Positions 9,652-13,149 of a DNA stretch of 54,476 nt are shown here, in pieces (position 1 is the stretch's first letter; every line of letters begins with the position of its first letter). The notes below the pieces were generated by a model that was not told the origin of the DNA, did no database searches, and saw only the letters and a list, made by a program, of their open reading frames with translations. Location: NCBI GenBank assembly GCA_001899315.1, contig MOYA01000004.1:1-54476 (forward strand), in the 5' to 3' direction. A program made the position numbers and the translations under genes. Source of the stretch: Candidatus Obscuribacter phosphatis (GTDB lineage Bacteria; Cyanobacteriota; Vampirovibrionia; Obscuribacterales; Obscuribacteraceae).

Positions 9652-9758
9652 ATTCCTAACAGGGCAAAATCTGCCGATTCAACAAATGACAACTGCAAAG
9701 CTTTCAATAAGCCAACTATGAGCCACTCATAACAATTAAGAATGCTAGACTTTTGTGC

Positions 9759-11114
9759 ATGTTGCCAATCGAAAAGTCGTGCTACTGGCTAGCAAACAGG
9801 CAAGGGCACTTGCCAACCCCAAAGCTGAGCGGACCTACGCAAGCTGAGATAGCTATCGTCGGTGCAGGCTTTACAGGGCTCTGGGCAGCCCATTTTCTGA
9901 AAGAGCTCGATCCTGCAGTTGATATTGCCATATTAGAACAGGGCGTCACCGGCTATGGAGCCAGTGGCCGCAATGCCGGCATGATTAGCAACTGCATAGA
10001 CCACACCCACAGCCTGGCCATCAGTCACTTTGGTCAAGAAGAGGCAGCAAAACTAGCGAAACTCGGCCTTAAGAATATCGATGAATTGGAGGCTTTCGCC
10101 ACCGATTGCGACCTAGAGCGCACCGGACAGCTCTTTGTGGCGCTGACCGAAAAACATTTGGAAGACCTGAAAAGTCTAATAGCGGCAGCAGAGAGCCTGG
10201 GTATCAAGGGCTATGAACTCTTCAACCGGCAAGAAATCAGGCAAAAGCTCAACTCAGAACTCTATGCAGGCGGTGCTTTCGTACCAGGCGGCGGCATCTT
10301 AGACCCAATCAAACTTGTGGACCGGCTTGCCGAACAACTGAAAGCCAAGGGTGTAAGGATTTTTGAGAATACCAAGGTAACACACCTAGCCACCGGAGAA
10401 GCCACTACCGATAGTGGCAGCATTAAAGCAAAGAAGATCATCCTTGCCACTGATGCTTACACACACCATTTGCTGCCCGGCTTGCTCTGGCGCTTTATTC
10501 CGCTCTACGACTATATATTAGTGTCTGAGCCTCTTAGCGCTGAAGACCTAGAAAAAATCGGCTGGCGCGGCAGAGAAGGGATTGTAGATGGACGCACCTT
10601 TTTCAACTATTACAGACTGACAAAAGACAACAGAGTTTTGTGGGGTACAAGCGAGGCGGTCTATTACCCACCGAACCAAGTTGGACCTCAATATGACCAT
10701 TCAGATCACCACTATCACAGCCTCAAGGTTAGCTTTGAGCGCCACTTTCCCCAGCTTCGCAAGTTAGAGTGGCCCTTCGCTTGGGGCGGACCAATCGCCT
10801 CAACCACAAGACTGACACCATTTTTCGGCTCTGCATTTGATGACTCGGTGCTCTATGCACTCGGATACACCGGACATGGCATTGGTTCAACCAGGGTCGC
10901 CGGCAAGGTTTTGGCACATATGGCACTTGCCAAACAGAGTGAGCTGCTTCAGCTCAAAATGGTGAAAGAAAAGCCAATGCCCTATCCTCCTGAGCCATTC
11001 AGATCTATTTCGGTAAATATGGTCAAAGATTCCTTAAGAGCAGTTGATAGAGGTGAAAAACCAAACCAACTGTTGCGGCTTTTAGACTTAATGGGTATCG
11101 GATTCTCGAGCTAA
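9759..11114 (+). CDS. DadA/PuuB-like FAD-dependent amine or amino-acid oxidase
   Basis: About 451 residues of the FAD-dependent oxidoreductase (DAO) superfamily. A Rossmann dinucleotide motif AIVGAGFTGLWAAHFL lies near residue 30, preceded by the YWLANRQG segment seen in glycine/D-amino-acid oxidases and gamma-glutamylputrescine oxidases. YGASGRNAGM is the family's second FAD contact, and GYTGHGIGSTRVAGK is the C-terminal FAD motif. It should oxidise a primary or secondary amine to an imine with FAD, but the substrate is not readable. ATG at 9759 is taken as the start; the ribosome site is weak. A possible hairpin (AGTCCTG/CAGGACT) follows the stop. It precedes the diiron operon by about 220 bases, so a link is possible but not shown. 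Confidence 0.8.
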   Translation: MLPIEKSCYWLANRQGHLPTPKLSGPTQAEIAIVGAGFTGLWAAHFLKELDPAVDIAILEQGVTGYGASGRNAGMISNCIDHTHSLAISHFGQEEAAKLAKLGLKNIDELEAFATDCDLERTGQLFVALTEKHLEDLKSLIAAAESLGIKGYELFNRQEIRQKLNSELYAGGAFVPGGGILDPIKLVDRLAEQLKAKGVRIFENTKVTHLATGEATTDSGSIKAKKIILATDAYTHHLLPGLLWRFIPLYDYILVSEPLSAEDLEKIGWRGREGIVDGRTFFNYYRLTKDNRVLWGTSEAVYYPPNQVGPQYDHSDHHYHSLKVSFERHFPQLRKLEWPFAWGGPIASTTRLTPFFGSAFDDSVLYALGYTGHGIGSTRVAGKVLAHMALAKQSELLQLKMVKEKPMPYPPEPFRSISVNMVKDSLRAVDRGEKPNQLLRLLDLMGIGFSS

Positions 11115-11292
11115 AAGTCCTGCTTTTTTAGGCCGCGGCAAAACCCAGGACTGGCTGAAGTTTTTACTAAATGACTCCATCTAGAGAATTACTGATGTTT
11201 TTCTCTTTCAGCCCCATGGACGATGCCGACTCCTATTCATACGGCGGATACGCAAAACTAGCATACCTGCCACCATTTCAAGATAGTTAGCA

Positions 11293-11334: not shown

Positions 11335-12132
11335 ATGAAAAAATACGACCAAAACGACACGCTCCCCGAAGACTACAAAGCAGCACTAATAGACCTTTTG
11401 GCCTTTCAAGCCGACTCCGAGTTTGCCGGCGGTCAACGCGTCGAAGAGAACATGAAATTTGCCACTCGCCCGGAAGAAGCTTATCGCCTGGCAAAGAAGG
11501 TTATGGAAGAAATGGGGCATGGCTGGTATTGCTGGGAAATACTGGCTCCCCTGGGTGTGGATGTGAACGCAAGAGTGCAACACCTAGTGCAGAACAGAGA
11601 CAATCCAGACCCTAAAAAAGTAAGGGTAATCAACGGCTTCCGCAAAGAAAACTGGTCCACACTTTTTGAATGCTGGGCAGATGTTGCCATGTTCTCAACT
11701 GCCGTCACTCCCGCTGCCGTAGCCTTTCTAGGACAGTATCGTGAATCGAGCTATCTGCCCTGGGCAAAAGTATCAGAGCGCATCTGGGCTGAAGAGAAAG
11801 GTCATTTGGCTTTTGGAGTGTGGGCTGCTAAGCGAGTGATGGAACTGGATGGCGAAAAGGGCAGAGAGCAATTGCAAGCGGCAGTGCCAAAGTTTATGCA
11901 AATAGGTCTTGGTTTTGCAGGACGCCCTGCCGATGACAGCGAGCATTTCGCCAAGTACTTCGAATATGGTCTAAAGGTGAGAACAGCTCAGCAGATTCAA
12001 GATGAGTATATGGAGATCGTTTCCAAAAGACTAAAAGAAATCGGTCTGGAAATGCCAGCAAAAATCGAAGCAAACTATGACATGAGAGTAGGTTACGCTG
12101 CTTCCCAACCCCTGACCATGGCAGGAAAGTAA
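11335..12132 (+). CDS. PaaA-like diiron oxygenase subunit
   Basis: A 265-residue ferritin-like protein resembling PaaA, the catalytic subunit of phenylacetyl-CoA epoxidase. It carries a likely full set of diiron ligands: Glu29 in FQADSEF, Glu59 and His62 in MEEMGHGWY, Asp116 in CWADVAM, and Glu154 and His157 in AEEKGHLAF. The spacing between these positions follows the PaaA pattern. It is about 45 residues shorter than typical PaaA because the C-terminal part is reduced. The protein should activate O2 on an organic, perhaps CoA-bound, substrate; the substrate is unknown. It heads a tightly packed operon with a PaaC-like partner (1 base between stop and start) and a ferredoxin. No paaB, paaE, paaG, paaZ or paaK is nearby, so this is not a standard phenylacetate pathway. 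Confidence 0.82.
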   Translation: MKKYDQNDTLPEDYKAALIDLLAFQADSEFAGGQRVEENMKFATRPEEAYRLAKKVMEEMGHGWYCWEILAPLGVDVNARVQHLVQNRDNPDPKKVRVINGFRKENWSTLFECWADVAMFSTAVTPAAVAFLGQYRESSYLPWAKVSERIWAEEKGHLAFGVWAAKRVMELDGEKGREQLQAAVPKFMQIGLGFAGRPADDSEHFAKYFEYGLKVRTAQQIQDEYMEIVSKRLKEIGLEMPAKIEANYDMRVGYAASQPLTMAGK

Positions 12133-12133
12133 G

Positions 12134-12916
12134 ATGACACCGTCTCATTTGGACACACAGATAAGCGATGAAGACGCTCGCCTGCTCAGCAAAATTGCAG
12201 CAGGCGGCGTCATAGCCGACTGGCAAGAAACAGGCGGGCGCTTCAAAGAACTTGCCACCAGCATAATCTTGCAGTTTGCAGACTCTCAAATGGCTGGCGC
12301 TGCAGGTTTCGCAGACTTCATCAACCAAGGCACTTCGATAAACGACCGCTTACAGATAAGCAAGATGGTTGCAGAAAAGATGAGCATGGCTAAGCTCACT
12401 TACGATCTTTTAGCCGGACTCAACTTTAATAGCGATAGATATATCGCCAATCATTCCTTTCAAGCCAGGGTGCTGCGAGATACTTTCTTTGGCTTCAGCC
12501 GGTCATCGGCTGACAAAAGGCTGAATGCATTGCTTTATCCACTGGAAAGCTTCGATGATATGTTGATTTTCACCTATCTATTGGCTGTTATGGCTAAGTT
12601 GCTTGTCGGTGAGTTTGCCGACAGCAGATTTGCCCCTCTAAAGAACCTAGCCGAACACTGCCTACCAATTGAAAGCAGCCATGCCGATTTAGCTCTAGAA
12701 ATGCTAAAGAAGAGAATTCCACAGCAAAGAGAAAAACTACAAGTTTCTCTCACTTATTGGTACCCTCGCGTCGAAACCTCGGCAGGGCCGCCCGATTCAT
12801 TGCGCAATCAATGGCACCGAAAGTTTGGTCTCAAGCAATCTCAAAACGTTGAAATCAAAGAAACCTGGAGAAAAGAAGTGACTACTCAACTCAGCGCCCT
12901 TGAAATTCTTGCATGA
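12134..12916 (+). CDS. PaaC-like structural subunit, degenerate metal site
   Basis: A 260-residue helical protein that I read as a ferritin-like partner of the PaaA-like subunit, comparable to PaaC. The helix that should supply EExxH reads AEKMSMAK, with the histidine lost, and the first-helix glutamate is replaced by Gln in FADSQMAG. A later ExxH (PIESSHADLAL, about 176-186) is kept. Such decay of ligands is normal in PaaC, which has a structural role. It begins one base after the PaaA-like stop (GTAAGATG) and its end overlaps the ferredoxin start by four bases (ATGA), so all three are translationally coupled. Sequence similarity is weak to the eye, so the family call rests mainly on context and fold pattern. 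Confidence 0.6.
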   Translation: MTPSHLDTQISDEDARLLSKIAAGGVIADWQETGGRFKELATSIILQFADSQMAGAAGFADFINQGTSINDRLQISKMVAEKMSMAKLTYDLLAGLNFNSDRYIANHSFQARVLRDTFFGFSRSSADKRLNALLYPLESFDDMLIFTYLLAVMAKLLVGEFADSRFAPLKNLAEHCLPIESSHADLALEMLKKRIPQQREKLQVSLTYWYPRVETSAGPPDSLRNQWHRKFGLKQSQNVEIKETWRKEVTTQLSALEILA

Positions 12917-13149
12917 AACAGCACGTTACCGACCCGGAAATTTGCATAGGCTGTTCAGCCTGTGAGCTTGCCTGCCCGCAAAAGGCAATTAAGTCGCTAT
13001 TAGGTCGGTATTGCGTAGATGCAGAAATATGCCAAAACTGCGGCAATTGTATCGAAGAATGCCCAACCGGAGCCGCGGACTGCTTTATTGAAGTAAGCAC
13101 CTACTACAGCCAGGAAAGTCAGTCTGAGTGGACCAGCCTGCCCACTTGA
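12913..13149 (+). CDS. 2[4Fe-4S] ferredoxin
   Basis: A 78-residue bacterial-type ferredoxin. Two complete cluster motifs are seen: CIGCSACELACP (Cys11, 14, 17, 21) and CQNCGNCIEECP (Cys40, 43, 46, 50). The opening HVTDPEICIGC is reminiscent of the ferredoxin domain of BoxA, the reductase of the benzoyl-CoA epoxidase BoxAB. It most likely passes electrons to the diiron site of the PaaA-like protein, replacing the PaaE reductase (2Fe-2S plus flavin) of the classical system. It overlaps the end of the PaaC-like gene by four bases. No ferredoxin reductase is encoded next to it. Two extra cysteines (34, 57) lie outside the motifs. Confidence 0.9.
   Translation: MKQHVTDPEICIGCSACELACPQKAIKSLLGRYCVDAEICQNCGNCIEECPTGAADCFIEVSTYYSQESQSEWTSLPT

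Follow-up and report, generated by a model that had tools for sequence, protein, structure and literature searches.

A PaaA/BoxB-type dimetal protein with a threonine at one ligand position and a BoxA-like ferredoxin partner in Candidatus Obscuribacter phosphatis

We analysed a window of 54,476 nucleotides that forms the start of contig 4 in the genome of Candidatus Obscuribacter phosphatis (5.5 Mb, 95% complete), the nearest relatives of which are Candidatus Obscuribacterales/Melainabacteria genomes of non-photosynthetic Cyanobacteriota. Three genes, herein called A, B and F, follow each other closely in the window (Table 1), as had been claimed in the original prediction, with a gap of 1 base between A and B (12133) and an overlap of 4 bases between B and F (ATGA, 12913–12916). 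All three were found to be under strong purifying selection when compared with the nearest relative, having dN/dS values of 0.009 for A, 0.03 for B, which is faster-evolving than A, and 0.042 for F.

Table 1. Positions and nature of the genes and sequence features at the A-B-F locus
Feature	Position in window	Strand	Description
Operator-like dyad TCAGCC-CCAT-GGACGA	11208..11223	.	About 120 bp 5' of A start
Gene A	11335..12132	+	PaaA/BoxB-type dimetal protein, 265 aa; PF05138, fold, 21 orthologs
Codon ACT (Thr125)	11707..11709	+	Aligned with PaaA iron ligand Asp126
Gene B	12134..12916	+	PaaC-like degenerate partner, 260 aa; PF05138
Gene F	12913..13149	+	2[4Fe-4S] ferredoxin, BoxA N-terminal-domain homolog, without reductase domain

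In profile searches, A matched the PaaA_PaaC family (PF05138, E 4e-25) and scored 71.6 bits against the PaaA equivalog model TIGR02156, which is far below the curated cut-off of 280 bits, and no BoxB model matched it. Its structure was predicted from sequences of A and B, taken from the window as well as the fetched loci, giving a mean pLDDT of 88.6, as compared with a pLDDT of 68 when using A orthologs alone. The nearest solved structure to this predicted, metal-free model was that of PaaA (VIA-align, Z 24, rmsd 2.6 over 243 residues, 22–23% identity), followed by SSO1313 (Z 22.8), PaaC (21) and BoxB (19), and no closer relation to a non-oxygenase ferritin-like family, which the original prediction had named as evidence that would count against it, was thereby seen. 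The Z scores of 14–17 obtained by VIA-align against other ferritin-like proteins, namely ADO, R2lox and MMOH, reflect the bundle that they have in common. When we asked whether A could be a member of the CylC/AurF dimetal halogenases, its closest sequences and folds were again of the PaaA type. Orthologs of A, with 69–98% identity, were present in 23 of the 50 family genomes, and none were found elsewhere in the samples taken of the class or the phylum. A spread of the A clade into photosynthetic cyanobacteria could be dismissed, with a search at E 1e-15 giving only four remote proteins from beyond the class; these carry an Asp at the position discussed below and resemble X, a PaaA/C-like protein of related genomes.

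The third gene had been proposed to encode a BoxA-like ferredoxin instead of the PaaE reductase, and this was confirmed. The best family match of F was BoxA (TIGR03224, E 1.7e-18) over the whole length of F, the 78 residues of which cover positions 2–80 of the 411 in the model, with the C-terminal FAD/NADPH reductase domain missing. As seen by alignment, F also shares the C-terminal tail of BoxA, having the pattern Y-(S/T)-x3-Q-x2-W-x2-LP, and there is no PaaE gene within the A-B-F operon. Matches to F in plasmid records at E 1e-5 comprised only annotated BoxA genes and a few unannotated places, of which that in Cupriavidus KK10 encodes a full-length BoxA-like protein. F was located directly 3' of either A or B in all of the 21 loci, and the flanking genes varied between these loci, so that the conserved pairing of A with F does not come from shared surroundings. 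One annotated BoxA gene, located on a Rhizobium leguminosarum plasmid (NZ_CP030763; L111:7977-9215), has no BoxB or BoxC nearby and adjoins genes for glycosidases and an FAD-dependent oxidoreductase, so that partners other than these two may exist for reductases of the BoxA type.

B also matched PF05138 in the profile search (E 2e-11), with the locus having the make-up A-B-F in 12 of the 21 cases and A-F in the other nine, and at E 1e-5 no B was found in the genomes of those nine loci. The expected co-occurrence of three genes thereby held with regards to F, which always comes after A, and failed with regards to B, so there is no obligate trio. We consequently regard A and F as the core of the system and B as an optional partner. 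The tree of A requires at least five gains or losses of B as drawn, one of which is forced by well-supported branches, and it does not distinguish between loss and gain.

The diiron ligands of PaaA are Glu42, Glu72, His75, Asp126, Glu155 and His158 (PMC4498308). Alignment placed E29, E59, H62, T125, E154 and H157 of A at these positions, meaning that five of the ligands are kept while Asp126 is replaced by Thr125, and not that all six are retained, as had been presumed. The A–PaaA alignment is free of gaps from a W-A-D motif to the second ExxH motif, i.e. around the fourth ligand, and Asp116 of A, being the D of W-A-D, is aligned with the non-ligand residue Asp117 of PaaA. Six intact ligands in A are thus ruled out by the alignment with PaaA, and also by that with BoxB. 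Thr125 is invariant in 21 of 21 A orthologs, and the equivalent position holds Asp in PaaA, in BoxB and in each of the seven X-like relatives examined. In A, K55 corresponds to the bridge lysine K68 of PaaA, with the partners of the latter, Glu49 and Asp126, both changed. As for B, the residues at the six ligand positions are Q, K, M, A, E and H, with only E180 and H183 kept, for which reason B cannot hold a normal metal site; this loss of four out of six positions agrees with the PaaC-like second gene originally described as being without key ligands. Having threonine at the sixth position, A could bind metal less strongly or play a part other than catalysis.

A gene for an FAD amine oxidase (9753–11114) lies upstream of A and had been suggested to belong to the same pathway. 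Apart from the host, it was found beside A only in L088, which is near-identical to the host, and it did not adjoin A in the other 19 loci. As the dyad listed in Table 1 is furthermore located between the two genes, we consider the oxidase to be unlinked to A, and its candidacy as a pathway partner was rejected.

The dyad has the conserved form ATCATCC-N4-GGATGAT and is found 5' of A within otherwise dissimilar upstream sequences. Among 15 independent A loci, the best match to TCATCC-N4-GGATGA had a mean score of 10.4 out of 12, as compared with 7.5 ± 0.19 for shuffled sequences and 7.5 ± 0.21 for random windows; the consensus was derived from the same A loci that it scores, and independent tests of the dyad therefore carry more weight. 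The host copy is imperfect (10/12) and was recovered again in a scan of the host genome. Exact copies of ATCATCC-N4-GGATGAT occurred at 34 sites in the 50 family genomes, spread over 20 of them, with no sites for the reversed control, and 25 of the 32 sites that were fetched are upstream of genes, as compared with 18% of random positions (p = 1e-13). The exact dyad was present in 14 of the 23 genomes with A versus 6 of the 27 without A, with a p value of 0.009 that is only rough because the genomes are related. No FNR-type sites (TTGAN6TCAA) were found 5' of A in the 21 loci.

Among the other genes carrying the dyad are several associated with low oxygen or with nitrogen oxides. In the family genomes the dyad also precedes genes for NorB (qNOR), NnrS, UspA, HypF, PPDK and a rubredoxin-ScdA-hemerythrin repair protein (RIC, Fe-S repair), and in four genomes the gene of a NarL-family response regulator itself. 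It was also found at the gene of hydroxylamine reductase Hcp, which is oriented divergently from A, and at that of a cytochrome c (L107), as well as at a fatty-acid desaturase (L096), UspA (L098) and an ORF encoding Hsp20 (L103). In the host, the dyad lies between the gene of an Rrf2-family regulator with weak similarity to NsrR/IscR (~490.0 kb) and a divergently oriented operon for a cytochrome c and nitrate reductase (L214:5760-12999; contig 1, ~490–497 kb), and it is also present at a Rieske/cytochrome b/bd-like complex. The gene for the closest host relative of the NarL-type regulator (~994.7–995.5 kb) and that for a protoglobin histidine kinase are oriented divergently, with two UspA genes nearby (L212:3914-6535 for the pair; host contig 1, ~993–996 kb), and this host regulator has about 46 aa more than its relatives between the receiver and the HTH. 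On the basis of these gene arrangements we infer that A is under control of a low-oxygen/NO regulon, for which the protoglobin (heme-globin) histidine kinase together with the NarL-type response regulator is likely to be the candidate switch, while the Rrf2 protein could be an alternative regulator of A.

The interpretation that we favour, although with slightly less than even confidence, is that A and F, with or without B, form a redox enzyme of the PaaA/BoxB type that depends on ferredoxin, has a dimetal site (probably diiron) and is induced by low O2 or by nitrate/NO. F would then be reduced by a separate cellular reductase, dock on A via its BoxA-like tail and hand over two electrons, whereupon the reduced metal pair of A would activate O2 at low concentration for the oxidation of a small organic substrate. 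This substrate might be a CoA or acyl thioester, like those of the relatives of A. B would serve as a structural partner of A, like PaaC does for PaaA, and the missing carboxylate would open a coordination place on one of the metals, shifting the chemistry away from that of PaaA and BoxB. F is proposed as the donor because of the operon and its homology to BoxA, O2 as the oxidant because of the family, and NO as the main alternative oxidant because of the genes sharing the dyad. Considering the ligand swap together with a dyad common to nitrate/NO genes, A is probably a low-oxygen enzyme and not a standard oxygenase of aromatic degradation.

The claimed absence of further phenylacetate genes is true within the window and does not extend to the genome, where PaaK-, PaaF- and PaaG-like genes are found elsewhere. 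A paa-like operon of the host (L213:5789-10162; contig 1, ~2.996–3.000 Mb) encodes a PaaK-like ligase (TIGR02155, 596 bits versus a cut-off of 646), an EthD protein and three crotonases, among which are the PaaF- and PaaG-like proteins. PaaB is absent, with no match to PF06243 at E 0.1 in the whole host genome at its 95% completeness. In relatives, the PaaK-EthD-crotonase operon also holds X with all six ligands, while the host, like several relatives, has kept the operon but has no X. With A and B being the only PF05138 proteins of the host, A-B-F could in principle be the ring epoxidase of this pathway, standing in for the lost X, but we find this very improbable. Among genomes lacking X, A was present in 10 of 15 with the operon versus 9 of 18 without it (Fisher p = 0.48), and since A thus does not track the operon where X is absent, a replacement of X by A is not backed and was kept as a weak rival only. 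A and X also coexist in four genomes, no strong dyad was found 5' of the host paa-like operon, and the ligand set of A is unlike those of X and PaaA. No paa or box gene adjoined A in the 21 loci, and an aromatic-catabolic role of A is not supported by genomic context. A literature search for Obscuribacter together with phenylacetic metabolism gave no results.

Other explanations would do without an organic substrate altogether. The A-(B)-F system might be a reductase or scavenger of NO or O2, with F supplying the dimetal site of A with electrons for converting NO to N2O or O2 to water, which would be in line with the dyad being common to NorB, NnrS, Hcp and RIC and with the lack of dedicated metabolic neighbour genes of A, and the metal site could admit NO as a result of the lost carboxylate. 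By analogy with NO-responsive dimetal proteins (flavodiiron proteins, RIC), a non-oxygenase role of A would be plausible. We still consider such a reductase unlikely, as the nearest relatives PaaA and BoxB are epoxidases of organic substrates and the dyad is also found at genes unrelated to NO (PPDK, desaturase, UspA); moreover, carboxylate-rich ferritin-like sites are not known to reduce NO efficiently. Should A instead be a degenerate member of the family, serving for instance as a scaffold or in the sensing of iron, O2 or NO, with a metal site of structural importance only, then the clade-wide replacement of one ligand and the degeneracy of B would be in line with this. Five ligands are however kept in spite of only ~22% identity to PaaA, the dN/dS of A is very low and its ferredoxin partner is constant, and we therefore give little credence to a non-catalytic A.

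Compared with known systems, the favoured dimetal redox enzyme is similar to PaaA–PaaC of PaaABCE (TIGR02156/TIGR02158; PDB 3pvr/3pw8), sharing the fold across the whole of A, the pairing of a catalytic with a degenerate subunit where B is present, the bridge lysine and all but one of the six ligands. It differs from PaaA in the Thr125 substitution, in having no Glu49 and in lacking the C-terminal part of PaaA, and from PaaABCE in having no PaaB, F for PaaE in the operon, a dispensable B and no adjacent paa genes. The benzoyl-CoA 2,3-epoxidase BoxB–BoxA provides another parallel, as BoxB works without a PaaC-like subunit, like in the A-F genomes, and is similarly fed by a 2[4Fe-4S] ferredoxin, with F aligning to BoxA residues 2–80. 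BoxB is however about 475 aa, compared with 265 aa for A, and keeps the Asp ligand, whereas F, unlike BoxA, has no FAD/NADPH domain, and BoxC and BoxD are not nearby. SSO1313 (PDB 4mud) and X of Vampirovibrionia have a single-chain PaaA/C fold like A, with X being ~30% identical to A; in contrast to A, X has its full ligand set, sits with PaaK, EthD and crotonases and has no ferredoxin seen beside it. The relationships to PaaA, PaaC and BoxA, the reduced system and the different electron path put forward in the original prediction were thus judged right.

In mononuclear-iron halogenases, loss of an Asp opens a coordination place on the metal. Thr125 would match the predicted open place of CylC/NocO by chain order, which makes an exogenous ligand in A a real possibility, although nothing points to halide in particular. 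CylC/NocO halogenases have a ferritin-like dimetal site and are ferredoxin-driven, and an open place for halide is predicted in them at a carboxylate that is flanked by the two ExxH motifs (PMC12101540), which would topologically be Thr125; unlike A, they belong to another sequence family, have a site with 3 His and 3 Glu and are found in natural-product gene clusters. A bolder proposal, which we regard as doubtful, would be that A represents a new functional class of PaaA/BoxB proteins, in which the loss of the helix-E carboxylate admits NO, halide or some other exogenous ligand for a ferredoxin-driven reaction other than aryl-CoA epoxidation, as part of a low-oxygen/NO response controlled by the globin kinase and NarL-type regulator. 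Those diiron proteins of the PaaA/BoxB type that have been characterised act as aryl-CoA epoxidases in catabolism and have six fixed ligands. The A clade is a five-ligand version, and its combination with a stand-alone BoxA ferredoxin and a low-oxygen dyad suggests a different reaction within this family. A would also be a natural variant for probing the part of the sixth carboxylate in diiron chemistry.

The proposed regulation would tie the PaaA/BoxB family to the oxygen-limitation response of the non-photosynthetic cyanobacterial relatives, for which a dyad and a candidate regulator can now be proposed. It resembles the hypoxia regulons of DosR/NarL type, as in M. avium, in having a NarL-family regulator with a heme-sensor kinase, a palindromic operator, and UspA, fatty-acid desaturase and globin- or NO-related genes, with UspA and desaturase also included in the mycobacterial DosR regulon (PMC11876180). 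It differs in phylum and operator and in that nitrate reductase, NorB, NnrS, RIC and a PaaA-like operon would belong to it. Two further observations concern the dyad sites. A four-gene respiratory complex, encoding a membrane protein without Pfam match, a Rieske protein, cytochrome b and a bd-I-like subunit, the tail of which has a CxxCH haem motif, carries the dyad or adjoins A in several genomes (L102:4546-8746, L215:3951-8145). Within the host genome, the copy closest to the consensus of the dyad (13/14) is located 66 bp 5' of a gene for a 333-aa protein without Pfam match (L216:6413-7414; contig 1, ~894 kb).
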